Shown: piece after piece, positions 3 through 16,090 of the stretch
Numbering within the stretch: the first letter of the stretch is position 1
Layout of the letters: each line of letters opens with the position of its first letter
IMG/VR virus record: IMGVR_UViG_3300031997_000034
Location: 1 to 34,696 of that record
Length of the DNA: 34,696 bases
Strand: one strand, 5' to 3'
Source of the DNA: a virus
The notes under the pieces: model-generated
Databases searched by the model: none
Told to the model about the DNA's origin: nothing
Seen by the model: only the letters and a program-made list of their open reading frames with translations
Made by a program: the position numbers and the translations under genes

Positions 3-2048
3 CGCCCTCACACGTTCTTCGTAGGCTACGTGTCGGGTGAGACGTTGAAGTTCAATTGGAGTACGCATGTAGTAGAATTTGAAGCTGCAAGCTTGAACAT
101 CATAATGGATAAGCTCGACGTCTTCGGCGCAACTACCTTATTCAAACCTGGAGTGCAAGATACTACATGGTTCGAAATTCCTCTTATGACTGCAGATAAA
201 GCAGTTGCACACTTCTTGCGATGGCATACTACAGCTCTGACAATCGCCGATTTTCATCCTACGTTGGATACGAGGGAACTCCAAAACGTAGACTTCGAAC
301 GTGGTGGCGGAGCAAATCCAGTTAGGAACTTTTATAAGACTGCAATACTCGCGGATATGCGTTGTGATGCTCAAGGTACTTTCTGGGCAGAGATGATGCA
401 ACAGTTCCTTCCTATTGCGGTTCGCAGTGCACTCGTTCTCAACGATCTTACTCGAAATAAATGGAGAGGTCAACCTCAGATTACAGACGTAATGTTGTCG
501 AACACGTCATATGTCGAGGCTGGGGGGGTTGCCTTCTCAGGGGCTACTGGAACGTTCCAAGCGTACCTTGCAGGATATCCAGGCAACGTTCCTGGTAGAT
601 TCGGAAGGGCAGAAAACGTTACAGGACTCGCTGTAAATTCGCAAACTCAACTAAGCGAGCTTGTTGGACATATTTGGGCAGACAAGGTCTCGAGGAATCC
701 AGAGGTAGTCATGCCCATGGCAGGCAACTATCGTGAGTACGATATTGCTCCATTCAAGTGGTCGACTCTATCGCTTCAGCATGACTTTGTAAACTGGGTT
801 GATAAGAGGTTGCAACCGATCAGAATCTCACACGTATACCATCCAACCAAGAAGGCTCTGCTAACTGATATTACGTTCAAGCCTGAGACTTGGGGCGTGC
901 CAGGCGTTACCGTTACCTTACCGCCTGTAGTTCCTTCAGATCCTGAGAGTCCTCCTTATCCGCCAATACCAGTACCCCCTCCAATACCAGTACCTGTATA
1001 CGAAATCGTGGTGGTTGCAAACGATCACCAGATAGGGTACTCTGCCAATTTCTTCGAAGTTTCTCCTATCTGGGTGAACATCAGGGGTGGCGCTCTTGCT
1101 TCTGCTACTGGTCATATTTCTTGCTTCGACGTCGCAGCAAACGGAGAAGCCTGGTTGTGCACTACCGAAGGGTATGCAGGGGCGAATCTAAGTCTCAATG
1201 GGATCTTCTACTGCCATCACATTATGACTGGAAGCTGGGTACTTGTAAAATCTGAAGTTGCTATCAGAGCGGAAGTACTAAACACTGGCGATGGATACGC
1301 CGAGACGTTGTCTGTAGATAGTAACGGAACTGTTTGGGTTCCGATTACAAATGCAGTAGCCTGGGCTCCAAATGGAGTGTTCCAATACTATACAGGCAGC
1401 GGAGGCTCTTTAGGCGCTATTCAAACTCGCACCTGTACTCCTCCCGCACCTGGCTTTGGCCGAGGCTATGTGGGTGGTAAACAGTTCAGTTGTAGAAGTG
1501 ACGGAACGGTTTCTTGGCTTGCAATCGTAGAGACTAACGGCTATCCTGGCTATTGGGACTTTAGTGCTGACGCTTACGTACCTTACTGGCTTGGATTTGC
1601 AAGTCTTGCCTCAGTAGCTCCAACTACGAATATACTAACTCTTGGTGGGCATGTTTGTGCTGCTGATGGCTCTGTCCTTCAAACAGGTGCAGCACCAGAT
1701 TACCCTTTGGTAGCTAATGGCGGTACGATTTACTGGACCAGAAATGCCGATGGGTACTTGATGCAGGATGGAGGTGTATTTGGAATTCCGAACGACATTC
1801 CAGGAACGGATGGAGTGTTTGCTCCAACGTCCGCATCAAGTGGTGGGTACACAACCGTCAGTACACCAACGGAAGTTATCTGGGTCTCTCGCATACCAGG
1901 ATCGAACTGGCGTCGCTTTATTGCCTTTACGACTTTAGGAGGTACAGGTAGTAACTGGGAAACGAAAGATGGGGACTGGGTTACGAAGATAGGAACCTGG
2001 CCAACCAGTTCTAATATACCTATGGTCAAGTACGCGGTGGTGACATGA
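3..2048 (+). CDS. Tail/baseplate-type structural protein, 5' end cut by window
   Basis: The reading frame is open from base 3, and the residues before the GTG at 30 (…PHTFFVGY) read as normal protein, so I treat the gene as truncated by the window edge rather than starting at 30. Counting from the GTG, about 290 residues of mixed alpha/beta protein are followed by a proline-rich hinge (about 292-325, runs such as PPIPVPPPIPVP) and a C-terminal part of about 340 residues rich in G, S, T, W and Y, which suggests a beta-structured, possibly propeller-like, exposed domain. The stop overlaps the ATG of the tail fibre gene (ATGA). Position and architecture suggest a tail-tip or baseplate component that carries or contacts the fibre. 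No family was recognised with certainty; the structural role is inferred from context. Confidence 0.6.
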   Translation, partial: RPHTFFVGYVSGETLKFNWSTHVVEFEAASLNIIMDKLDVFGATTLFKPGVQDTTWFEIPLMTADKAVAHFLRWHTTALTIADFHPTLDTRELQNVDFERGGGANPVRNFYKTAILADMRCDAQGTFWAEMMQQFLPIAVRSALVLNDLTRNKWRGQPQITDVMLSNTSYVEAGGVAFSGATGTFQAYLAGYPGNVPGRFGRAENVTGLAVNSQTQLSELVGHIWADKVSRNPEVVMPMAGNYREYDIAPFKWSTLSLQHDFVNWVDKRLQPIRISHVYHPTKKALLTDITFKPETWGVPGVTVTLPPVVPSDPESPPYPPIPVPPPIPVPVYEIVVVANDHQIGYSANFFEVSPIWVNIRGGALASATGHISCFDVAANGEAWLCTTEGYAGANLSLNGIFYCHHIMTGSWVLVKSEVAIRAEVLNTGDGYAETLSVDSNGTVWVPITNAVAWAPNGVFQYYTGSGGSLGAIQTRTCTPPAPGFGRGYVGGKQFSCRSDGTVSWLAIVETNGYPGYWDFSADAYVPYWLGFASLASVAPTTNILTLGGHVCAADGSVLQTGAAPDYPLVANGGTIYWTRNADGYLMQDGGVFGIPNDIPGTDGVFAPTSASSGGYTTVSTPTEVIWVSRIPGSNWRRFIAFTTLGGTGSNWETKDGDWVTKIGTWPTSSNIPMVKYAVVT

Positions 2049-5000
2049 GTCTATCTAGAGCTCAACAACAGATACGGAAAGCCTTTCTGGGACACCTCGC
2101 CAAGAAGCAAGATACTCCAATCCTCATTCCTGGACTTCTTGGTACGTACTCGGGTGGGAGTGCGGTAGTACAAGTGCCCAATCGTCCTGACTACGTATAT
2201 GTTCGGTTGCGTGGTGTACAGTCCGAACTCGTTGAAGCTCTCAATAGAAGCGTGTTGAGGTCTTTCAATTTACCAGTGTTGGTAATTAGAGAAGGAGGCC
2301 ACTGGAGAGTATACGACGTCAACGAAGCTGGGATGAGCACAGGAGGCTCCGGTCAAGCGTTCCTTCCGAACCACGGAGCACAGCACTCTTTTAGCGGCGG
2401 AACTGGATCTGCGCAAGGCGATATCACATGGGTGTTCAAGCGACAGTTTATGCCTCTCCTCACACGGCCTACAGCTCCCAACTCGATGGGTGTGTATGTC
2501 GAGTCTGACTACTTCGCTCTTGGTGGTAGCTTTGTATGGTTCGCGGGTACAGGCACACCCCAATTTACCTCTCTCGTCCCCGTAGTATCGAATCAGGCTC
2601 TGTTCGTAACGGTCTATCTTGACCACAACGGAAACTTAGACTATATCACGGGTACGTCGTTTGCGTACACAGGATCCGTTAGCGATCCTGATGGCTTGGT
2701 ACCAATGCCAGCAGTGGGAGACGGCATACCTCTATCTTCCATATTCATCTACAATACACAAACAAAGGTTGGCTGGCCTGATATCTGGGATGTTCGTACA
2801 GTTGTTCAAGATCCAACGGCGGGTGTAGCAGCTGCTGGTTGGGCGTTGGTCGGTAACTTAGGTACAGTGGCAGGCACGAATTTCGTCGGTACCAGAGATG
2901 CTCAAGACCTCGTCGTAAAGACAAACAACGCTGAGGTTGCAAGATTCTATAACGGCGGTGGTTTCTCTGTAGGTAGCCTCACCGCCGATACCGTCGTCTA
3001 CGCTGACGCGAGTAAGAAGCTAGTCAGCCTAGCAAACGCAGCGGGTGTGCTTACTAACAATGGTGTTGGAGTTCTGTCATGGGGTGCCGGCGGAGGAATA
3101 CCGGCGTTAACTGCAACCTATATTGGATATGGCGATGCTGGAAACTTGTTGACCGGAAGCGCAAATCTGACCTGGGATGCCACTCGTCTCACGGCCCAAA
3201 TCTCAGATGCGGCGACTAACACGGTTGTCTATCCGCTTCGAGTTTCGCACATCACAAGTGGTATGGCAGCGGCTCTGTTTGGCGCAGGAATTGACTTTCA
3301 GCTTGAGAACGCAGGCGGAAACAACGTCGTAGCGGGCATGATCGAGGCGGTCTGGAAAACGCCAACCAACGCGGCGGAAGTTGGGCAACTTGTCTTTAGA
3401 ACATTACAGGCCGGAACACTCTTTCCAGCCATCATTGTCACAGGCGGCACCACAACGGAAGTCGGGAACGCACGCGGTCTTGGATCAATCGAAATTCAAG
3501 CTGGGCGCGCTCTTGCCGCTGAGGTTGCGAGTGGTTCTGCCTCAGTATTGATTGCCACGAGAGGCGAGGCAAGCGGCGCTAGCTCACTGGCGATTGGTTA
3601 TTTTCCAGTCGCATCTGGTCCTCAGGCAATTGCAATCGGTAAAGGAACATCGTCTGGAAATGGGTCAATACTGATTGCGCCGTCCCATCCTACTGGTTCT
3701 TCTACCGTCAGCGGGGATACCTCAGTAGCGATTGGGATTTTGCACAATGTATCTGGAGACAAATCCGTAGGGATTGGACAAAGGGCAGTTATCACTCACG
3801 ACGGTTCATTCCTATATGCAGATCAAACAGCCGCCGACTTCAACAGTGTGGCCGCAGACGAGTTTGCCCTTCGCGCTCGCGGCGGACTCCGACATGCTTA
3901 CGATGACGCTTATTATTGGACGGCAAATGTATCTAATGCCGGCGTAACGACATTTGCTACGTTGCCGGTCGGCGCGGGATTCGTGTTCACTCCGCCAGTG
4001 ACATTCAATGCAGCGCAGACTATCAACACGACGACTATCCCACAACTGGCGCTAACGAATCCGACTGGCCCGGCCTCGCTGACTGTGAGCGTGGCTGCGA
4101 CGACAGGCGCAGTAACGTTGGACGCGGCAGGGACTGCACCAAGTTTCTCGTTCACTGACCCCGTAACTGTGAAGGGTACAACTGCTACAGACTCTCCGAC
4201 TTTTAACGTTGAGTTTCTGTCCGCATCCGGTTGGACTTCCGTTGACTGGACGGGTGATTGGGCTACCGGTTGGACACACGATGTAGGCAACACGACCGCG
4301 CTGTCGCAGTCTACAGCGGCGGAAAACACAACCAAATACCAGATTGCTTACACCGTCTCTGGCCCGGCTGGAGGCTCATTTACTATCGCGTTCGGTGGAC
4401 AATCGCTGGCTGGAATTACGGCCACTGGCACATTTGGCCCGACTACTACGTCAACTGCCAATCTCGTTATCACGCCCACGTCTGATTTTGTTGGTACAAT
4501 CGTTATTTCAATCAAGAAAATCACAGCAGCCTCAACTGCGGTCTTTGTGTTGACCAGTTCGGACAGTGTAACCAAGTTCGAGTTACTCGCTAGTTCCGCC
4601 ACGGCCGGGAATACTTTCGTTGGGGCCGGGTGTGGTAGATACAACACAACAGGAATCAGAAACACTGTTCTTGGCTACCAGTCACTTTACAACTCCACGA
4701 CAGGCGACTATAACGTTGCGGTCGGATACCAGGCCCTAAACGCCAGTACAGTCGGGGCAGGTAATTTCGGACTTGGGTATCGCGCTCTGTATAGCAGCGT
4801 TGCCTGTTCTAACAATACCGCAATCGGCGGCTCCGGTCTATTCTATCTGACATCAGGCGATTGCAACGTTGCGCTCGGAGTTAGCGCTGGCAGGTATCGC
4901 GGCGCTGGCTCTAACACGTTGACGACCGCCAACAATGCTGTTCTAATCGGCTATAACGTTCGTGCGAGCGCCAATGGTAACACGAACGAAATCGTCATTG

Positions 5001-5674
5001 GCGCAAACGCAATCGGCGCGGGAGGCAACACCGTAACTCTGGGCCACACGGACATCGTGCAAACACTATTGAACGGAGCGACCTCCATCACTGGACGCTC
5101 CGATGCCAAACAACTTCTCGTCACGGGTTTTACGACACAGGCTGTTGCAACGCCGCTCGTAGGATTCACGCGGGCGGATGCTGCTGCAGGCATCTCGCAG
5201 ATGCTCGGATTGACGGCACTGGGTTCTGGTGCGAATGGCGACGGCGGCAGTATAGTCATGGCTGGCAAGTCCAGCACGACGGCTGCGACGCTAATGGGGC
5301 TTGACCAGTGGCTGTATGTAATTGCGACACACGCAAGTTATACTACTCGTCGTATATGGAGTGCATACGATTCCGGCGGCGTTCGTGAAGGATTCCGGCT
5401 AGAGACGAACGGCGCGGCTGCAATGCTTGGCTTCTACGGCGGGGCGGCAGTAGTTCGTGGCGCAGCATTGACGGCGCAACTAACGACGATCACCCACACT
5501 GCGCCAGGAACACCAGACTATGCCTTGCAGGACTTGGTGCAAAACACTGGTTTTGGATTTGTAACGAAGGATGAAGGTAACTCGACGCTAGCCGTCATCG
5601 CAAATTTGCAAGTGCGGATTGCTCAGTTGGAAGCCAGACTGGACAGTGCCACTGGCGTCAACTTGTTTGCTTAG
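2045..5674 (+). CDS. Tail fibre / receptor-binding protein with adhesin-like repeats
   Basis: A 1209-residue protein starting at an ATG that overlaps the previous stop. The N-terminal ~100 residues look like a compact tail-attachment domain. Two blocks, at about residues 495-590 and 855-1000, carry G-x-x-S-x-A-I-G and N-x-A-x-G-x-x-A-L type repeats (for example SLAIGY, AIAIGKG, NVAVGYQAL, NVALGVSAG), the pattern of trimeric autotransporter (YadA-like) head repeats that form left-handed beta-rolls. The last ~30 residues (NLQVRIAQLEARL) have heptad spacing and could form a trimeric coiled coil. It would act outside the virion in host recognition. From about 2.95 kb onward the codons look richer in GC than in the first 900 bases, consistent with a transferred distal part. 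No peptidase or endosialidase chaperone domain was recognised. Confidence 0.75.
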   Translation: MSLSRAQQQIRKAFLGHLAKKQDTPILIPGLLGTYSGGSAVVQVPNRPDYVYVRLRGVQSELVEALNRSVLRSFNLPVLVIREGGHWRVYDVNEAGMSTGGSGQAFLPNHGAQHSFSGGTGSAQGDITWVFKRQFMPLLTRPTAPNSMGVYVESDYFALGGSFVWFAGTGTPQFTSLVPVVSNQALFVTVYLDHNGNLDYITGTSFAYTGSVSDPDGLVPMPAVGDGIPLSSIFIYNTQTKVGWPDIWDVRTVVQDPTAGVAAAGWALVGNLGTVAGTNFVGTRDAQDLVVKTNNAEVARFYNGGGFSVGSLTADTVVYADASKKLVSLANAAGVLTNNGVGVLSWGAGGGIPALTATYIGYGDAGNLLTGSANLTWDATRLTAQISDAATNTVVYPLRVSHITSGMAAALFGAGIDFQLENAGGNNVVAGMIEAVWKTPTNAAEVGQLVFRTLQAGTLFPAIIVTGGTTTEVGNARGLGSIEIQAGRALAAEVASGSASVLIATRGEASGASSLAIGYFPVASGPQAIAIGKGTSSGNGSILIAPSHPTGSSTVSGDTSVAIGILHNVSGDKSVGIGQRAVITHDGSFLYADQTAADFNSVAADEFALRARGGLRHAYDDAYYWTANVSNAGVTTFATLPVGAGFVFTPPVTFNAAQTINTTTIPQLALTNPTGPASLTVSVAATTGAVTLDAAGTAPSFSFTDPVTVKGTTATDSPTFNVEFLSASGWTSVDWTGDWATGWTHDVGNTTALSQSTAAENTTKYQIAYTVSGPAGGSFTIAFGGQSLAGITATGTFGPTTTSTANLVITPTSDFVGTIVISIKKITAASTAVFVLTSSDSVTKFELLASSATAGNTFVGAGCGRYNTTGIRNTVLGYQSLYNSTTGDYNVAVGYQALNASTVGAGNFGLGYRALYSSVACSNNTAIGGSGLFYLTSGDCNVALGVSAGRYRGAGSNTLTTANNAVLIGYNVRASANGNTNEIVIGANAIGAGGNTVTLGHTDIVQTLLNGATSITGRSDAKQLLVTGFTTQAVATPLVGFTRADAAAGISQMLGLTALGSGANGDGGSIVMAGKSSTTAATLMGLDQWLYVIATHASYTTRRIWSAYDSGGVREGFRLETNGAAAMLGFYGGAAVVRGAALTAQLTTITHTAPGTPDYALQDLVQNTGFGFVTKDEGNSTLAVIANLQVRIAQLEARLDSATGVNLFA

Positions 5675-5758
5675 GTGTCGCTTCCAAGTGCACAAGCAGA
5701 ACGGACTACTATGCCGCTTCTGTCGCCACCGATTCCGCCCATGCCCCCATTCTGCTAA
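5675..5758 (+). CDS. Possible 27-residue proline-rich peptide
   Basis: GTG directly abuts the TAG of the tail fibre gene. The frame encodes 27 residues ending in a proline/methionine-rich stretch (SPPIPPMPPFC) before TAA. The back-to-back stop and start would allow translational coupling, and short proline-rich tail peptides occur near phage fibre genes. There is no separate ribosome binding site and the length is minimal, so it may be chance. Confidence 0.25.
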   Translation: MSLPSAQAERTTMPLLSPPIPPMPPFC

Positions 5759-5813
5759 CCTGGGGGACGACTGAGTGACATTGAAACTCGATTACAGCTA
5801 ACAGGAGGATAAA

Positions 5814-5915
5814 ATGATATCATATTATGTAGCAACGGCGGGCAATGATGGACTAACTACACTAACTCCTTGGCAGACACTTGGCAAAGTGGGTATCAGA
5901 CCAGGTCGTCGATGA
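5814..5915 (+). pseudogene. Truncated tailspike-like N-terminus (33 residues)
   Basis: A strong AGGAGG (5803-5808) sits five bases before ATG 5814. The 33-residue product begins ISYYVATAGNDG and continues with LTPWQTLGKV. That is the opening seen in right-handed beta-helix (pectate-lyase fold, DUF1565-like) proteins: YYV-x-x-x-GND-x…PW-x-T. A real member would run for hundreds of residues; this one stops at TGA 5913-5915, which overlaps the glycosyltransferase ATG (5912). I infer that a tailspike gene was mostly replaced by the downstream cassette, leaving its ribosome binding site and first codons as a leader that couples translation of the glycosyltransferase. The resemblance is from pattern only. 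Confidence 0.5.
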
Positions 5916-6583
5916 TTTCTATCATCGTTCCCAGTATGTATAGACCAGATCAGTTCCGCGAATGTATAAAACGGCTTCGTGAGACTACTACTGGTTTCGA
6001 TGTCGAAATTGTTGCAGTCGTCGACGGCCGTTGTAGCCGAACTCTTGCAGTAGCAGCGGAGTTACAACTTCTTACTATCTTCAACGAAAAGCACCAGGGT
6101 GCGCTTGTAAGTTGGAACAGAGGGTTGAGGGTATGCTCTGGCAATTATGTAGTTACTATTGCTGACGACGTCTATTGTCACGACAATTGGCTAGAAGAAG
6201 CTCTCAAGTCACATGCAACGCTTCCAGGATGGTCAGGAATAGTCGGCCTGAATCCTCTACACGATGAGGGATATAGGAAAACACATTGCTGTCACTTCCT
6301 TGCTGACCGCAAAGCAATTCGTGAGGTACTGGGTGGTGTGCTCTTCTACGAAACAAAGTACAAGCACTACTGCTCCGACAACGAAACTTACGATAGGGCC
6401 GTGAAAGCAAGACGTTACGTTGCATCTGAAAAGTCCATTGTAGAACATCTTCACTGGCGCCACGAGAAAGCTACCAAGGACATCGTTTACGCGTTGACGG
6501 AACAATATCTTGCAGACGACTACAAGGTATTACGTGCACGAAAAGCAGCAGGTTATCCGAATGACTTCCCCTCGATGATATGA
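5912..6583 (+). CDS. Glycosyltransferase family 2 (GT-A fold)
   Basis: The start chosen is ATG 5912, overlapping the leader stop; the upstream TTG extension reads as junk. The product (223 residues) opens with MISIIVPSMYRP, the first beta strand of GT-A glycosyltransferases, followed by VEIVAVVDG, then GALVSWNRGL and a metal-binding acidic motif in VTIADDV (about residues 85-86). This arrangement is standard for family 2 enzymes transferring a sugar from a nucleotide-sugar; the C-terminal half has H- and D-rich segments (CSDNETYDRA, HLHWRHE) typical of the acceptor region. Donor and acceptor cannot be read from sequence. It is the first of five coupled genes (ATGA overlap with the methyltransferase), so it probably acts in the same glycan-modification route. 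Confidence 0.85.
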   Translation: MISIIVPSMYRPDQFRECIKRLRETTTGFDVEIVAVVDGRCSRTLAVAAELQLLTIFNEKHQGALVSWNRGLRVCSGNYVVTIADDVYCHDNWLEEALKSHATLPGWSGIVGLNPLHDEGYRKTHCCHFLADRKAIREVLGGVLFYETKYKHYCSDNETYDRAVKARRYVASEKSIVEHLHWRHEKATKDIVYALTEQYLADDYKVLRARKAAGYPNDFPSMI

Positions 6584-7119
6584 ACACAATCGACTCCCTC
6601 TATAACTTCGCTCTATTTTCTCCTTTCTCAGATATCGCGGAACATCTCGAAACTCTTAGAGACTACGCGAGTAAATGTGATGACATCGCTGAGTTCGGAG
6701 TACGAACTGGTATATCAACTATTGGACTTCTCATGGGTCATCCGAAGAAGATGACCTCGTACGATTACCACAACTTCCCCTACGTTCGAGAATACTTAGA
6801 AGCAGCCCAGCTAGCTGGGATCAACTTCACCTTCAAGGAGCAAGACGATTGTCTAGAATTAATTGAACCTGTAGACTTCCTGTTCATCGACAGCGAGCAC
6901 ACCTATGAACAGACACACCGTGAGCTCCAAATGCACTCCGAGCAGGTTAGGAAGTGGATTGGCTTTCACGATACCTTCTGGGAACTATCTACACAGCTAG
7001 TTGAAGGGCCTTCATGGCCTCTATGGCGTGCTATAAACGAGCTACTAGATACTAGTAAATGGCACGTCATACTCAATCGTCTGAACTGTAACGGACTGAC
7101 AATAATAGAACGAAAATGA
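6580..7119 (+). CDS. Class I SAM-dependent methyltransferase
   Basis: A 179-residue protein starting at an ATG overlapping the previous stop. Motif I appears as IAEFGVRTGIST (AdoMet-binding loop, E-x-G-x-x-x-G variant), and the later strand FLFIDSEHTYEQ matches the D-x-x-H-x-Y signature of the Methyltransf_24 / cephalosporin-hydroxylase-like group, followed by WIGFHDT. The family includes O-methyltransferases acting on sugars. The protein is small and appears to be only the Rossmann domain. Coupling to the neighbouring glycosyltransferase and sulfotransferase suggests a sugar substrate; this is inference. Confidence 0.75.
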   Translation: MNTIDSLYNFALFSPFSDIAEHLETLRDYASKCDDIAEFGVRTGISTIGLLMGHPKKMTSYDYHNFPYVREYLEAAQLAGINFTFKEQDDCLELIEPVDFLFIDSEHTYEQTHRELQMHSEQVRKWIGFHDTFWELSTQLVEGPSWPLWRAINELLDTSKWHVILNRLNCNGLTIIERK

Positions 7120-7775
7120 GCGTTATCTGGGTTGCATCTTTTCCACGAAGCGGGAACTCGTTTGTAATGAGTTTGCTGTGGAATCTATACGGGTGTCGGA
7201 CGAGCTCAATCTTCGATGAGACTGGGTACATAGATGCCCGTAAGCTCTACAAGATGTATGGATACGAGGCACTCACATACGAAAAGTTTGCTTATTGGAT
7301 GCTAGATCAAAAACCTCATTTCATCAAGACGCATAATGCTTGTACTGATTCGCTTCCAGCTATCTATGTAGTACGTGACGGACGCGACACGCTAGTGAGC
7401 CTAGCCCATTTCAAAATCGCGCAGAAGCGGGTAAAGACAGACTTTGAAGACACTCTTCGTAACAGCATTGCAACTCCAGGTTTCAGCTGGAGCAGGCGTG
7501 TGCTATGGTGGGTAAAGAAGCGAGCGTCAGTAGTCGTGAAGTATGAGGATCTAGTTAGAGCACCAGTACTCACACTGCACTATGCTCTCAAGAAGTTGCA
7601 TATCTCATCCGATAAGACTGGTATACCAATCTCGTTCGAGACACTACACAATATCGAACCTACTCAATATCGTAGTGGTAAAGTGGGTGTTTGGCGCGAG
7701 GAAATGAGTGAAGCAAACCAGGAGCTCTTCTGGAAGCTGCACGGTAAGGCAATGAAAGAGTTGGGGTATGACTAA
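7116..7775 (+). CDS. PAPS-dependent sulfotransferase
   Basis: A 219-residue protein with the full sulfotransferase signature. The 5'-phosphosulfate loop is SFPRSGNSF (residues 8-16), the probable catalytic histidine is H73 in FIKTHN, the 3'-phosphate-binding motif is YVVRDGRDTLVS (84-95), then VVKYEDL and the C-terminal GVWREEMS…LGY pattern. The family transfers sulfate from PAPS to hydroxyl groups of sugars, lipids or proteins. No PAPS-synthesis gene is visible in the window, so the donor would come from the host. ATGA overlap upstream and an 8-base overlap downstream place it firmly inside the five-gene cassette. The substrate is unknown; a sulfated sugar on the virion or host surface is the simplest idea. 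Confidence 0.88.
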   Translation: MSVIWVASFPRSGNSFVMSLLWNLYGCRTSSIFDETGYIDARKLYKMYGYEALTYEKFAYWMLDQKPHFIKTHNACTDSLPAIYVVRDGRDTLVSLAHFKIAQKRVKTDFEDTLRNSIATPGFSWSRRVLWWVKKRASVVVKYEDLVRAPVLTLHYALKKLHISSDKTGIPISFETLHNIEPTQYRSGKVGVWREEMSEANQELFWKLHGKAMKELGYD

Positions 7776-8463
7776 GAAGCTTGACTACGGAGAGTTCATA
7801 CAATCAGGAGATCTGGTATTTGATGTAGGAGCGAACGTCGGGGTGAAGACATCCGAATATTTAGCTCTTGGAGCTACTGTCATCTGCTTCGAACCGAGTT
7901 CAGAAGCTCTCGAAGTGCTTCGAAGTAGGTACGGCAATAATCCTCGTGTAGTTATCGAGCCAGTCGGGTTATACGATCACGAAGGCACAAGAAGGTTCTT
8001 TCCAGCAAAAGTATCAGGCCAGTCGACCTTTTCGCGAGCCTACATTCAGAACTCCCCGTGGTTTCCTCCCGAACACTGGAAGACTACGTACTTTGTCAAA
8101 GTAAGTACTCTCGATATCATGTTCAAAAAGTGGGGTGTGCCAAGGTTTCTCAAGGTAGACGTCGAAAGCTCCGAAGTAGAAGTCTTGTCCAGAATGAATT
8201 GGCCAGTCGATGCTCTGTCGTTTGAGTTCCATGTAGGGGAGCAGTGGAAGAAGGGGAGTACGTGGTGTGTGAACTTTCTCCATGACAAGTTTGGATATAG
8301 AAAGTTCAACTACATTGTCAACGATACGATCGACGGAGTGGGGATCGAAAGCAATGAGTACAGGTTTGACGATTGGGTCGATAAAGACACCCACCTTGCA
8401 GCTCTAAACGAAGAACCACGGCACTCAGGAATGAACTGGGGTGACGTCTATGCGAGGATCTAA
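7768..8463 (+). CDS. FkbM-family methyltransferase
   Basis: A 231-residue protein whose ATG overlaps the sulfotransferase stop by 8 bases. AdoMet-binding motif I is VFDVGANVGVKT (18-29), followed by VICFEPS (motif II acidic residue) and LKVDVESSE, the hallmark strand of FkbM enzymes. This family O-methylates hydroxyls on polyketides, glycans and glycolipids. Together with the other methyltransferase it suggests two methylation positions on the same product. The C-terminal 50 residues (from about NDTIDGVGIE) fall outside the core domain. Confidence 0.85.
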   Translation: MTKKLDYGEFIQSGDLVFDVGANVGVKTSEYLALGATVICFEPSSEALEVLRSRYGNNPRVVIEPVGLYDHEGTRRFFPAKVSGQSTFSRAYIQNSPWFPPEHWKTTYFVKVSTLDIMFKKWGVPRFLKVDVESSEVEVLSRMNWPVDALSFEFHVGEQWKKGSTWCVNFLHDKFGYRKFNYIVNDTIDGVGIESNEYRFDDWVDKDTHLAALNEEPRHSGMNWGDVYARI

Positions 8464-8464
8464 T

Positions 8465-9193
8465 ATGAAGGTTGTTGTTATCACACAGACGTGGAACGAG
8501 GAGGAAATGCTGCCGTACTTCCTTCAACACTACTCTCAGTTCGCGGACGAGATCATAATCCTCGACGACGGAAGCACAGACTCGACTTGTGAGATAGCTC
8601 GCACTTGCAATGTTGCCCGTGTAGAACATAGACTAGCTACTGGGGGCCTTATCGACGACGAGGAACGGACGAGGGTTGCAAATACCTTCTACAAGACCAT
8701 CTATGCCGATTGGTACGTCATCGTTGACGTAGATGAGGCAGTGTACCATCCCAGCGGAGACGTGAGAGCAGTACTTGAGGAATGCTCAAGACAAGGAATA
8801 ACGGTACCGCGATGTGAGGGGTACCGGATGGTAGGTACATCGTTACCACCAAAAGGGACTTCGCTTACAAAACACATTAGAACTGGTATACACGATACGA
8901 TGTACGATAAGGTTGCAGTTTTCGCTAGAGATGTAGTTCCTGTTTACCATCCTGGCAGACATCATACTAAATCACTTACCGGGAGCGTCGTACAAAGTAA
9001 GTGGCCAGTTTTCATGTTCCTACACTACAAGTACCCGAGTAGAGAGTTTGTGCAAGCCAGAATTGCGCGAACTCAGATGTCTCCACGCAACTACGAACTC
9101 TATTTAGGCTTCATGCCCGATGGAAGAGAGGGCAAGGATGCTTGGATGGAGATCTACGAGCAAACCCTACACGACGCTGTCCGCATCATCTGA
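8465..9193 (+). CDS. Glycosyltransferase family 2, VDVDE type
   Basis: I start the gene at ATG 8465, which has GAGGA at 8454-8458 and lies one base after the previous stop; a GTG 24 bases upstream is less likely. The 242-residue product begins MKVVVITQTWNEEE and contains IIILDDGSTDST and YVIVDVDEAVY, the strand-1, DDGSxD and metal-binding DxDE motifs of Glyco_tranf_2_4-like GT-A enzymes. The histidine-rich YHPGRHH segment is in the acceptor half. It closes the plus-strand cassette, and its last 27 bases overlap the 3' end of the first minus-strand gene. Confidence 0.85.
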   Translation: MKVVVITQTWNEEEMLPYFLQHYSQFADEIIILDDGSTDSTCEIARTCNVARVEHRLATGGLIDDEERTRVANTFYKTIYADWYVIVDVDEAVYHPSGDVRAVLEECSRQGITVPRCEGYRMVGTSLPPKGTSLTKHIRTGIHDTMYDKVAVFARDVVPVYHPGRHHTKSLTGSVVQSKWPVFMFLHYKYPSREFVQARIARTQMSPRNYELYLGFMPDGREGKDAWMEIYEQTLHDAVRII

Positions 9194-12958: not shown

Positions 12959-13504
12959 TTACCGCTCCGTCATTAGAGTAAGATACTCATGGCGAGCCTC
13001 GCCACTAGTTAGAAAGACGCCACGCATCTCGGACGTAATGAGGTGTGCATCCTCTTCGCGAACGCCTCGACATGCCATGCAGGTGTGTACGGCATTCATT
13101 GTGACCGCAACGCCCATAGCACTCAGCTCGTGCTTGAGATAGGAAGCAATCTCGGCAGTGAGTTCTTCTTGCGTCGATGGCTTCGTAGCACACCATTTGA
13201 CAAGTCTTGGTATCTTGCTCGCTCCGACCATGAGATCGTTCGGAATATAGCCAACCCACGCTGTCCCCGTATAGGGGAGCAAATGATGCTTGCAAACAGA
13301 ACTGAAGCGAATTGGTCCGCACATGATGAGCTGGTTGACGTCTACAGGAAACGTTGTCAACTTGAACTGACGAGGTCCGGGAGCATACTCCTTCAAGTAG
13401 GCAACGAAACGCTCTGCGGTTCTCTCCGAACTATCGTCCCACTCGAATTCTGGGAAGATGTCGTCGATGATGAGCTTCATCAGTGCAACGTTACTTGGCT
13501 TCAT
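12959..13504 (-). CDS. folE: GTP cyclohydrolase I
   Basis: A 181-residue protein matching FolE: VCKHHLLPYTG with zinc ligands C71 and H74, IGxxR-like KIPRLVKW, and HTCMACRGV with the third zinc ligand C142. The enzyme converts GTP to 7,8-dihydroneopterin triphosphate, the first step of preQ0 synthesis. It overlaps the upstream zinc-finger gene by 14 bases and has TAGGAGA before its ATG. With queE, queD and queC in the same operon it is best read as part of a phage 7-deazaguanine pathway rather than folate synthesis. Confidence 0.93.
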   Translation of the reverse strand: MKPSNVALMKLIIDDIFPEFEWDDSSERTAERFVAYLKEYAPGPRQFKLTTFPVDVNQLIMCGPIRFSSVCKHHLLPYTGTAWVGYIPNDLMVGASKIPRLVKWCATKPSTQEELTAEIASYLKHELSAMGVAVTMNAVHTCMACRGVREEDAHLITSEMRGVFLTSGEARHEYLTLMTER

Positions 13505-13805
13505 TGCGGTCTCCTAGTTTTGCAAGTATGTGATCTATGTACGCGTTCGCTCTAACAACCGAAGCGAGTTGTGGGACAAGCTTCGCAGGTGCACCGTTAC
13601 CTGCTGGCCGTGTTGTTAGAACTTTTTGTCTCGTCCTGCACCTAGGACAAAATGATGTGGCTCCAACCGGCTTCACGTTAGATGCGATAGAGTGCCCACA
13701 CTCTAGATAGGTAATGTACACGTTGTGATGTGGACCTATACCCGCGCAGTCGCAGTCGCAGTCACTTGGTTCACCTGGAACGCTTATGGCCGTGATGATT
13801 TTCAT
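13491..13805 (-). CDS. Cysteine-rich putative zinc protein within the que cluster
   Basis: A 104-residue product with a strong ribosome binding site (TAGGAGAG) and an ATG that overlaps the queE stop. It has an N-terminal CDCDC cluster (from residue 16), then YLECGHSI and FCPRCRTRQ, giving CxH and CxxC pairs compatible with a zinc ribbon, followed by a helical C-terminus. No enzyme family was recognised. Its placement between queE and folE, with overlaps on both sides, suggests co-expression with 7-deazaguanine synthesis. Confidence 0.7.
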   Translation of the reverse strand: MKIITAISVPGEPSDCDCDCAGIGPHHNVYITYLECGHSIASNVKPVGATSFCPRCRTRQKVLTTRPAGNGAPAKLVPQLASVVRANAYIDHILAKLGDRNEAK

Positions 13806-14506
13806 ACACCTCTCCTACTACCCCAAAGTAAATAGTGTAACTGAGGTAAAACGCTGAAGCTGCCAAAGAAATCGTCGTGAGTAAGCGTCTCGACGATGTA
13901 TCTAGTTCGTTCCAAGACGCCTTGTACGTCCGTTCCTAGTGGTGTGCCTATCGAAATGTAACGGTGAGCGTTCGGCAACTTCAGCGATTTGATCCAAGCA
14001 ATATCTTCGCTGCTGAATACTACGAACTTGAGAGTTGTAGATAGGCCGAGTGCTCGGCGTTTGTTGCACGCTTGCGTGATGTTGACCCAATCTGTCCTCT
14101 CGCTCATTCCCGACGACGGAGGCTTCGGTGAGATCGTGAGCTCGTCAAGTAGCTCTACCTGCTCGCTGGTAAGCACTGTCCCTTGCGTCTCCATTGCAGT
14201 GTTGAAACCTGATCTTATAAGCTCTCTGAGCAAAGGTTCGTCGACGAAGAGTGCCGGATTACCTCCAGTAAGAATGATCCAATCTGCGTAGCCTCTTAGA
14301 TGGTCAACGACGTTGACGATCTGCTTCGCCGTTATGTCTTCCTTCTTCCAACCTTCGAAGCTCGGGTTTATCGCGTACTTCGTGTCACACCACGAACAAG
14401 CGCTATCGCAACCTGCGAAACGAACGAAGTAACAGATCTTGCCGATCTGCCTGCCCTCACCCTGGATAGTTGGCCCAAAGCACTCGCTGATAGGATACGT
14501 TTTCAT
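13802..14506 (-). CDS. queE: 7-carboxy-7-deazaguanine synthase (radical SAM)
   Basis: Start at ATG 14506, which overlaps the queD stop and has GGAG upstream; the eight extra residues from 14530 belong to the queD frame region. The 234-residue protein opens with the QueE signature SECFGPTIQGEG and has the radical-SAM cluster CDSACSWC (C33, C37, C40; CX3CX2C). ILTGGNPAL and ISPKPPSSG match the SAM- and substrate-binding segments of the family. It converts 6-carboxy-tetrahydropterin to 7-carboxy-7-deazaguanine. Confidence 0.93.
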   Translation of the reverse strand: MKTYPISECFGPTIQGEGRQIGKICYFVRFAGCDSACSWCDTKYAINPSFEGWKKEDITAKQIVNVVDHLRGYADWIILTGGNPALFVDEPLLRELIRSGFNTAMETQGTVLTSEQVELLDELTISPKPPSSGMSERTDWVNITQACNKRRALGLSTTLKFVVFSSEDIAWIKSLKLPNAHRYISIGTPLGTDVQGVLERTRYIVETLTHDDFFGSFSVLPQLHYLLWGSRRGV

Positions 14507-15006
14507 TTTGGGTCTCCATAGTACTTCCATAGCAACGGCGGCTCAGTTTTTAGAATTTTGCCTCCTACCAAAGCTTCGTAGGAAGCCGAAGTCTTTGGCG
14601 TTTCGCTCACGTTGACAGTAAGTCTCGTACTCGAGGGTATACCGATAGCTAAGATACCCCAGATGTAGTAGCAAATCTCTTCGGCAGTAGACCGCTTGCC
14701 AACGTAGCAACGTTTGAGATCGAGTTGGTTCACGTAGACGTAGACAGAGCTTAGACCTTCAGCACCGACGTCGGCGTCTCCGTAGAGAAACGCGTGATCG
14801 AGTTGTTCGATGACTGGTTTTACGATAATATCAAGGTTGCCGTAATCCATAACCATCGTATCGTCGGACGCTCCGGGGTTATGAATTTGTTCCCCTTCGA
14901 TCTCAACAGTCACGGAATAAGTATGACCATGTAAGTTCTTGCACTTGCCTTCGTGGCCGACAAGTTGATGCGCTGCGTCAAAAGTGTACGTTTTACTAAT
15001 CTTCAC
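14503..15006 (-). CDS. queD: 6-carboxy-tetrahydropterin synthase
   Basis: GTG start at 15006, overlapping the previous stop (GTGA), with GGGAGGT upstream. The 167-residue product carries the QueD zinc histidines H13, H26 and H28 (FDAAHQLVGH, CKNLHGHTY), the catalytic C22 and the LDHAFLYG and STAEEI motifs. It makes 6-carboxy-5,6,7,8-tetrahydropterin from dihydroneopterin triphosphate. It is somewhat longer than a typical ~120-residue QueD, with an insert around residues 75-105. Confidence 0.93.
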   Translation of the reverse strand: MKISKTYTFDAAHQLVGHEGKCKNLHGHTYSVTVEIEGEQIHNPGASDDTMVMDYGNLDIIVKPVIEQLDHAFLYGDADVGAEGLSSVYVYVNQLDLKRCYVGKRSTAEEICYYIWGILAIGIPSSTRLTVNVSETPKTSASYEALVGGKILKTEPPLLWKYYGDPK

Positions 15007-15188
15007 TTCGGACCTCCCACGTAGTAATCAGGATGATCAGGAACAGGCTCCATCCCAATCATACAACCGTGTAGCCGCGATTCGTGATAGATCGGAGTTA
15101 CCCTACCATCATCATGGAAGATATGACCGTCCGCATCCGAATTTGCATTCGGATTAGGATGTTCTTTATCATAGATTACGATTTTCAT
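15003..15188 (-). CDS. Unknown 61-residue protein between queC and queD
   Basis: The longer open frame here overlaps queC in another phase; the true start is ATG 15188, two bases after the queC stop with GGAGTGG ahead of it. The product (MKIVIYDKEHP…YYVGGPK) is short, rich in D, H and P, and has no transmembrane segment. It ends in a GTGA overlap with queD. No family was recognised; tight coupling suggests a job linked to the preQ0 pathway. Confidence 0.65.
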   Translation of the reverse strand: MKIVIYDKEHPNPNANSDADGHIFHDDGRVTPIYHESRLHGCMIGMEPVPDHPDYYVGGPK

Positions 15189-15189
15189 C

Positions 15190-15906
15190 TTACCACTCCA
15201 CCGGAATTGCGTACGGAATTGGATCTGCAAAGCCACATACCTTGAATGCATGAATCCTTTCGGAACACGTTGGACATAGACCACACGCGTATACGTATAC
15301 GGCTCCTGAGTTGACTGCGGACACTGGATCGTAACACGACCAAGTAAGGTGGAATGGGACGTTGAGTTTGTTGCCGCACCATACCACGTCGGCTTTCTGC
15401 ATGTTGATGAGTGGCGCAACGACTTTGATTTGATGATACGTGCCGATGTAAGCCGCGGCAGCGAACGCGCCGACGAAGTCGAAGCGACAGTCAGGGTAGG
15501 CGCTATTATGAGCGTCCTCCGCGTGCATACCTACGTGCACTTCGTCGAACCCTTTACCTGCAGCTAGTGCAACTGCCATTGCGAGGAAGACGCCGTTACG
15601 GAACGGGACAACTGTCTGCGACGGACCTTCGGCCTCTCGAATCTCTCTATACGTCATGTGAGGCATTTTGATCTTCCCGTCGAATAGCAGTGCGCTTTGC
15701 TCGCCGAAGATCTGAGGAACTACGATGACGTTGTCCTGAATTTCATAGAACTCGACGATGCGGAGAGCTGCACCGAGTTCCATTCTCTCGTGCTTGCTTC
15801 CGTAGGAAAACGACACTGTCTCGACTTCGTTGTCGCCATCCTTGAGAGCCATTGCGAGCACGACCGTCGAATCGAGACCACCAGAGTGGACGACTAGAAC
15901 TTTCAT
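15190..15906 (-). CDS. queC: 7-cyano-7-deazaguanine (preQ0) synthase
   Basis: Start at ATG 15906 (GGAGTG upstream, one base after the previous stop) rather than the ATG at 15918, which lies in the previous gene. The 238-residue protein has the ATP-pyrophosphatase PP-loop SGGLDST (8-14), SFSYGSKH, VPFRNGVFL, and the zinc site at the C-terminus (SCYDP…CGLCPTC). It converts 7-carboxy-7-deazaguanine to preQ0 using ATP and ammonia. Length is that of plain QueC; there is no fused amidotransferase domain as in the enzymes that make archaeosine-type products. Confidence 0.93.
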   Translation of the reverse strand: MKVLVVHSGGLDSTVVLAMALKDGDNEVETVSFSYGSKHERMELGAALRIVEFYEIQDNVIVVPQIFGEQSALLFDGKIKMPHMTYREIREAEGPSQTVVPFRNGVFLAMAVALAAGKGFDEVHVGMHAEDAHNSAYPDCRFDFVGAFAAAAYIGTYHQIKVVAPLINMQKADVVWCGNKLNVPFHLTWSCYDPVSAVNSGAVYVYACGLCPTCSERIHAFKVCGFADPIPYAIPVEW

Positions 15907-15907
15907 T

Positions 15908-16090
15908 TTACACTCCATTTCTGAATGCTAGTACCACGGCTAAGATAATGAGAAGAACGAATACAGTAACAAAAATCCCGACGGCAACCCCGCAACAACC
16001 CCCTGGCGAAGTTGATGCAGGTCCTTCGCCCATCTGATCGAGCATCTGAGCGCGCTCCTGTTCCAACTTGATCAAATCAAGATTAGGCAT
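15908..16090 (-). CDS. Small single-span membrane protein
   Basis: A 60-residue product with a near-consensus AAGGAGG before ATG 16090. A charged N-terminal helix (LIKLEQERAQMLDQM) is followed by a Gly/Ser/Pro linker, a CC pair and one strongly hydrophobic segment (about 34-55) with a short basic end. Topology suggests an inner-membrane anchor with a cytoplasmic N-terminus. It sits between the primase and queC. A holin-like role is possible by size, but there is no lysis gene beside it. Confidence 0.7.
   Translation of the reverse strand: MPNLDLIKLEQERAQMLDQMGEGPASTSPGGCCGVAVGIFVTVFVLLIILAVVLAFRNGV

Follow-up and report, generated by a model that had tools for sequence, protein, structure and literature searches.

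A five-gene glycosyl-, methyl- and sulfotransferase cassette at the end of a phage tail operon: a candidate system for virion decoration

For which surface would a phage build a methylated and sulfated sugar? The question is raised by the complete IMG/VR virus record IMGVR_UViG_3300031997_000034, a 34.7 kb linear fragment analysed here over its whole length (34,696 nucleotides; the window), whose rightward tail operon ends in a cassette of five plus-strand genes at 5912-9193. These genes encode two family 2 glycosyltransferases (GT2A and GT2B), two S-adenosylmethionine (SAM) methyltransferases (Methyltransf_24 and FkbM) and a 3'-phosphoadenosine-5'-phosphosulfate (PAPS) sulfotransferase, and each scores above its curated Pfam cut-off. 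The original prediction had named the same five activities and proposed a sugar that is both methylated and sulfated; Pfam upholds the identities, and the proposal is likewise well supported. It had left the target as either the virion or the host envelope. Three observations narrow this choice toward the virion: homologous sulfotransferases of unrelated phages sit in head, neck or tail operons by capsid or portal genes, the cassette lacks a flippase or membrane glycosyltransferase of the O-antigen-conversion kind, and it closes the tail operon. On these grounds, glycosylation of the virion (tail fibre or head) with methyl and sulfate capping is the favoured reading, held with about even confidence.

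The sulfotransferase carries all the cofactor and catalytic motifs of a PAPS enzyme, as had been predicted: a phosphosulfate-binding PRSGN loop (residues 10-14), the catalytic histidine in KTH73, the 3'-phosphate residues R87 and S95, and a C-terminal RxG motif, read as RSGK near 186. Across 26 homologues, P10, S12, G13, K71, T72, H73, R87, D88, R90 and S95 are invariant. An AlphaFold model (pLDDT 92.5) matches 2zyu with Z 16.5 and a root-mean-square deviation of 3.5 over 203 residues, which places it in the cytosolic sulfotransferase (SULT) fold; cytosolic SULT structures match across almost the full length, and the glycopeptide sulfotransferases Teg12 and StaL rank below the mammalian SULTs, although Z differences of 1-2 are not interpreted. 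Because the motifs are complete and the SULT fold is matched, the protein is very probably an active PAPS enzyme. The modelled fold indicates a PAPS sulfotransferase, not which acceptor it uses.

Viral homologues of this enzyme are encoded mostly inside runs of structural genes. Single-protein scans of viral contigs with the sulfotransferase or GT2B returned no relatives, and viral relatives were then recovered by alignment-guided scans; two of these gave 22 sulfotransferase contigs, which were tested as records and all lie above the Pfam cut-off. An HK97-type capsid gene is present on nine of the 22. On eight of these, no more than about 2.2 kb separate it from the sulfotransferase gene, on the ninth 5.7 kb, and the two genes share a strand wherever open reading frames (ORFs) were read. 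The capsid gene lies upstream in L094, L142, L145, L146 and L148, and a connector-like gene lies downstream in L094, L142, L145 and L148 (tested with hidden Markov models, HMMs, in L145 only). Alongside the sulfotransferase, eight HK97-type phages encode a methyltransferase-glycosyltransferase (MT-GT) fusion, the fusions being 38-65% and the capsids 36-82% identical; HMM support for both halves comes only from L140, and the L143 fusion matches no family. An SU10-type portal gene is upstream of the sulfotransferase in L149, and collar-fibre-like genes, identified by eye, are beside it in L095-L098. For several structural neighbours (L139, L151 and L153 in part), the HMMs recognised no family or only weak ones. 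In the sulfotransferase tree, viral members are scattered among bacterial ones, forcing at least three changes (gains or losses) of the viral label. The genetic link to virion structural genes that marks virion glycosylation takes the form of a tail-operon end in the window and of capsid or portal neighbours elsewhere.

Further genes accompany the sulfotransferase in these phages. The HK97-type phages with the sulfotransferase and an MT-GT fusion in the head operon are L093, L094, L142, L145, L146, L148 and L150 (also L140, L143 and L144); L093 and L146 hold a second copy of the fusion, and some phages of this type carry a GDP-mannose 4,6-dehydratase or cytidylyltransferase-like gene in the same operon. 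The dehydratase occurs in three: in L145 the protease and capsid genes flank it, and in L094 (by eye) and L150 it precedes the capsid gene. Among GenBank phages the sulfotransferase of L145 finds no counterpart, and the L145 fusion gives only weak and partial matches. Elsewhere, L139:1902-6750 presents a row of Sulfotransfer_2-like, methyltransferase, two glycosyltransferase and Sulfotransfer_1 genes, and at L152:4659-5246, a short way upstream of the main sulfotransferase gene, a further ORF (PHSGTRS...RDPLAVSLSW) looks by eye like a sulfotransferase.

Two podophage-like contigs bear on a different substrate. In L154 (4544-6846) a P22-like coat gene (phrog_283, 5.6e-78) lies directly upstream of the sulfotransferase, L155 (4500-6846) has the same arrangement by resemblance and by eye, and neither shows an evident glycosyltransferase nearby. 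Such an arrangement, together with a fold closest to that of the cytosolic SULTs, whose substrates are small molecules and phenols, would suit direct transfer of sulfate to a tyrosine or serine of a virion protein, or to a small molecule; the remaining four genes of the cassette would then form a separate glycan module. However, the five genes of the window cassette are tightly coupled in translation, and in HK97-type phages the sulfotransferase keeps company with the MT-GT fusion, so direct sulfation is judged improbable.

Under the favoured virion reading, the late timing, substrate order, acceptor and benefit are all conjectural. Late in infection, the two soluble GT2 enzymes would attach a host-derived sugar, or two, to a protein of the virion. 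The likeliest acceptor is the product of the adjacent upstream fibre gene, or else a head or tail-tube protein whose gene lies past the left edge of the fragment. FkbM and Methyltransf_24 would O-methylate the sugars, and the sulfotransferase would transfer sulfate from host PAPS to the glycan. The product would be a methylated, negatively charged sugar coat that might mask the particle or tune adsorption.

The cassette (Table 1) forms the last genes of a rightward block at 30-9193, which begins with a tail protein and the fibre-like protein and converges with the leftward replication genes. Its coupling is tight, as the original prediction had stated, yet ATGA overlaps make up only two of the four internal junctions (6580 and 7116) rather than most of them; the others are an 8-base overlap (7768/7775) and a 1-base gap before GT2B, whose ATG at 8465 is preceded by an AGGA-type ribosome site. 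Similarly, the cassette does lie behind the fibre gene, but not straight after it, since a 139-bp gap and then a 33-codon ORF intervene. This ORF (YYVATAGNDG...PWQTL), which the original prediction does not mention, has no Pfam match, resembles the N-terminus of beta-helix tail spikes and, on that resemblance, is possibly the stub of a spike gene replaced by the cassette. The cassette region shows no promoters or terminators beyond chance and no flanking repeats that would hint at a mobile element. A foreign origin was also sought in base composition, which gave no clear signal (45-49% GC in the cassette against about 48-51% in the replication genes). The FkbM assignment is further supported by 67.2 bits to TIGR01444, against a curated cut-off of 37.7.

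Table 1. Features at the end of the rightward tail operon
Feature	Position	Strand	Evidence
Large fibre-like virion protein, 1209 aa; candidate acceptor	2045..5674	+	phrog_6002 virion structural 2e-13; phrog_4636 tail spike 7e-12
33-codon ORF	5814..5915	+	strong AGGAGG Shine-Dalgarno upstream; ATGA-coupled to GT2A; read directly from sequence
GT2A, family 2 glycosyltransferase, soluble	5912..6583	+	PF00535 Glycos_transf_2, 2.7e-15; no hydrophobic segment
SAM methyltransferase, Methyltransf_24	6580..7119	+	PF13578 5.2e-07
PAPS sulfotransferase, Sulfotransfer_1	7116..7775	+	PF00685 1.4e-12
FkbM-family O-methyltransferase (FkbM/Methyltransf_21)	7768..8463	+	PF05050 4.3e-10; NCBIfam fkbM_fam TIGR01444 2e-18
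GT2B, second family 2 glycosyltransferase	8465..9193 (longer ORF from GTG 8441)	+	PF13704 Glyco_tranf_2_4, 1.3e-11

Bacterial homologues bring the host envelope into consideration. There, a lipid-linked lipopolysaccharide (LPS), O-antigen or capsule precursor would be methylated and sulfated late in infection, and the altered receptor would keep progeny from sticking to debris or exclude superinfecting phages. One bacterial sulfotransferase homologue lies directly behind an FkbM gene in an LPS cluster, others adjoin glycosyltransferase, epimerase, cysC and sugar genes, and the GT2 enzymes weakly resemble exopolysaccharide (EPS)/Agl glycosyltransferases. In the sulfotransferase tree, the nearest to the window enzyme are the bacterial L101 and L102 (support 91/89, not strong), of which one adjoins two Methyltransf_24 genes and the other lies near GDP-mannose dehydratase and GT2 genes. 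The machinery of the cassette points the other way. None of its five proteins has a hydrophobic segment, so they include no GtrABC-type O-antigen conversion apparatus (flippase, membrane-anchored GtrB-type glycosyltransferase, acceptor-specific membrane transferase), and no polymerase is present in the cassette either; the glycosyltransferase domains match phrog_841 only weakly; both GT2 enzymes are instead of the soluble kind found in phage virion glycosylation systems. Moreover, the window proteins that were scanned include no recognisable integrase, and the viral homologues have capsid and connector genes as their neighbours, not genes for lysogenic conversion. Modification of the envelope is accordingly the main rival reading, possible but doubtful.

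The replication arm suggests another candidate target, the phage's own DNA. Leftward genes encode a PolA-type polymerase, MazG, FolE, QueE, QueD, QueC, Sak4, ThyX, a PD-(D/E)XK exonuclease, a helicase and a large protein with weak primase-like matches; folE, queE, queD and queC, at 12959-15918, make up a 7-deazaguanine pathway. Hypermodification of DNA or nucleotides tied to these preQ0-type genes would have a parallel in the nucleotide modification via glycosyl- and sulfotransferases reported for phages (PMC10829341). Yet the cassette lies on the opposite strand at the tail-operon end, apart from the replication and que genes, and this position and strand make the idea unlikely. Several que genes persist in four syntenic relatives that lack the cassette, HK97-type phages place the sulfotransferase between head genes, and no tRNA-guanine-transglycosylase-like enzyme for insertion into DNA was recognised among the window proteins scanned. 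A role in DNA modification is hence very improbable.

Comparison with relatives marks the cassette as an accessory insertion rather than a trait of the lineage. A polymerase alignment gathered 451 related contigs, of which four (L008, L009, L011 and L015) retain the tail protein and the fibre, with homologues of the fibre-like protein in syntenic position, convergent with the polymerase. The cassette is not at the syntenic spot in these four; their fibre-polymerase interval instead holds holin-like, glycosidase- or HD-domain-like and fibre-accessory genes (ORFs by eye), and no sulfotransferase of any kind was found in the 50 polymerase-relative records examined. Neither the sulfotransferase (tblastn, E 1e-5) nor GT2A has a GenBank phage match. 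Matches of FkbM and GT2B there are mostly huge-phage records, where GT2B shares 32-34% identity with one portion of a fused sugar enzyme from a huge phage, and an IMG/VR scan with GT2B gave one relative.

Methyltransf_24 has 267 viral relatives, the best 80 of the 267 at 36-45% identity, which often adjoin glycosyltransferase and epimerase genes. Among 80 flanking ORFs tallied were 14 GT2, 8 epimerase/dehydratase, 3 hexapeptide transferase and 2 TylF-type genes, which assigns this methyltransferase gene to a pool of sugar genes in phages. Relatives of FkbM and GT2B are present in huge-phage sugar clusters, and pairs of them, or either with Methyltransf_24, occur in L193/L195 and L199. The fibres of L177 (47%) and L202 (38%) resemble the window fibre over short stretches, and both contigs carry sugar clusters that include FkbM a few kb behind that fibre.

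Several points weigh against a virion target. Half of what the original prediction had named as refuting it is observed: the full set of five genes recurs in no other virus searched, although sub-sets do. Capsid proximity is only moderately significant (Fisher P 0.02 on six longer records, suggestive only) because the contigs are short; the argument rests on repeated placement inside operons, not on this P value. The closest bacterial relatives of the sulfotransferase are encoded in gene clusters for surface polysaccharides or sugars, the acceptor site, the glycan and the sulfate on the virion are inferred, and a head target would lie outside the record, as the fragment does not carry the head genes. 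A broader proposal goes beyond this locus: virion sulfation may be a general, unrecognised strategy of tailed phages, which would have acquired PAPS sulfotransferases repeatedly into head and tail operons, with MT-GT enzymes making sulfated, methylated glycans. This proposal is tentative and falls clearly short of even confidence.

Comparison with known systems sets the window apart in several ways. Large phage sugar clusters (huge phages LR745206 and LR756501; L177, L202, L218 and L233) likewise group Methyltransf_24, FkbM and GT2 relatives, but hold many more genes (epimerases, Glf-like, DegT-like) and no detected sulfotransferase. Since the window set is minimal, its phage must draw its sugars from the host. 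Bacterial polysaccharide sulfation clusters (Dinoroseobacter pDSHI04 and Nitratidesulfovibrio pDVUL01) also place Sulfotransfer_1 beside GT2, with FkbM too in Dinoroseobacter, yet these loci belong to hosts and are richer in genes for nucleotide sugars, ligases or transport. A sulfotransferase in a phage tail region had been called unusual in the original prediction, but phage sulfotransferases as such are already annotated as auxiliary metabolic genes in Synechococcus phage S-SRM01 and OM43-phage genomes (PMC10580990), a source that calls their function unclear and whose case is Sulfotransfer_3, with the same PAPS sulfotransferase fold, rather than Sulfotransfer_1; the BFVD database adds this fold in cyanophages S-SCSM1 and P-SSM7 and Ralstonia phage phiRSL1. 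What stands out is the placement with virion genes, for which a literature search that left most subscription journals outside its scope found no precedent.

The closest functional parallel is virion glycosylation in mycobacteriophages (Che8 and relatives; PMC11256854, PMC12619734, PMC13313380), where proteins of the capsid and tail tube are glycosylated by enzymes that the phage encodes (Freeman et al. 2023, as cited in PMC11256854 and PMC12619734). In Rhodococcus phages, a glycosyltransferase accompanied by a methyltransferase has likewise been read as a sign that virions may be glycosylated (PMC13313380). The passages considered from these sources mention no sulfotransferase, unlike the window cassette, and in Maravista (PMC11256854) the glycosyltransferase genes are described near the genome 3' end, not by the fibre. 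Virion glycosylation in mycobacteriophages and phage sulfotransferase genes are thus both known, and sulfotransferases among virion genes are a broader pattern worth testing. In several phages that are not related to one another, they are neighbours of capsid, portal or tail genes, which yields a testable hypothesis, that the substrate is the particle; sulfation of phage particles may have been overlooked. If so, a sulfated, methylated glycan coat would alter particle charge and could affect adsorption, stability and recognition by host surface defences, extending virion glycosylation past the mycobacteriophage cases known to us.

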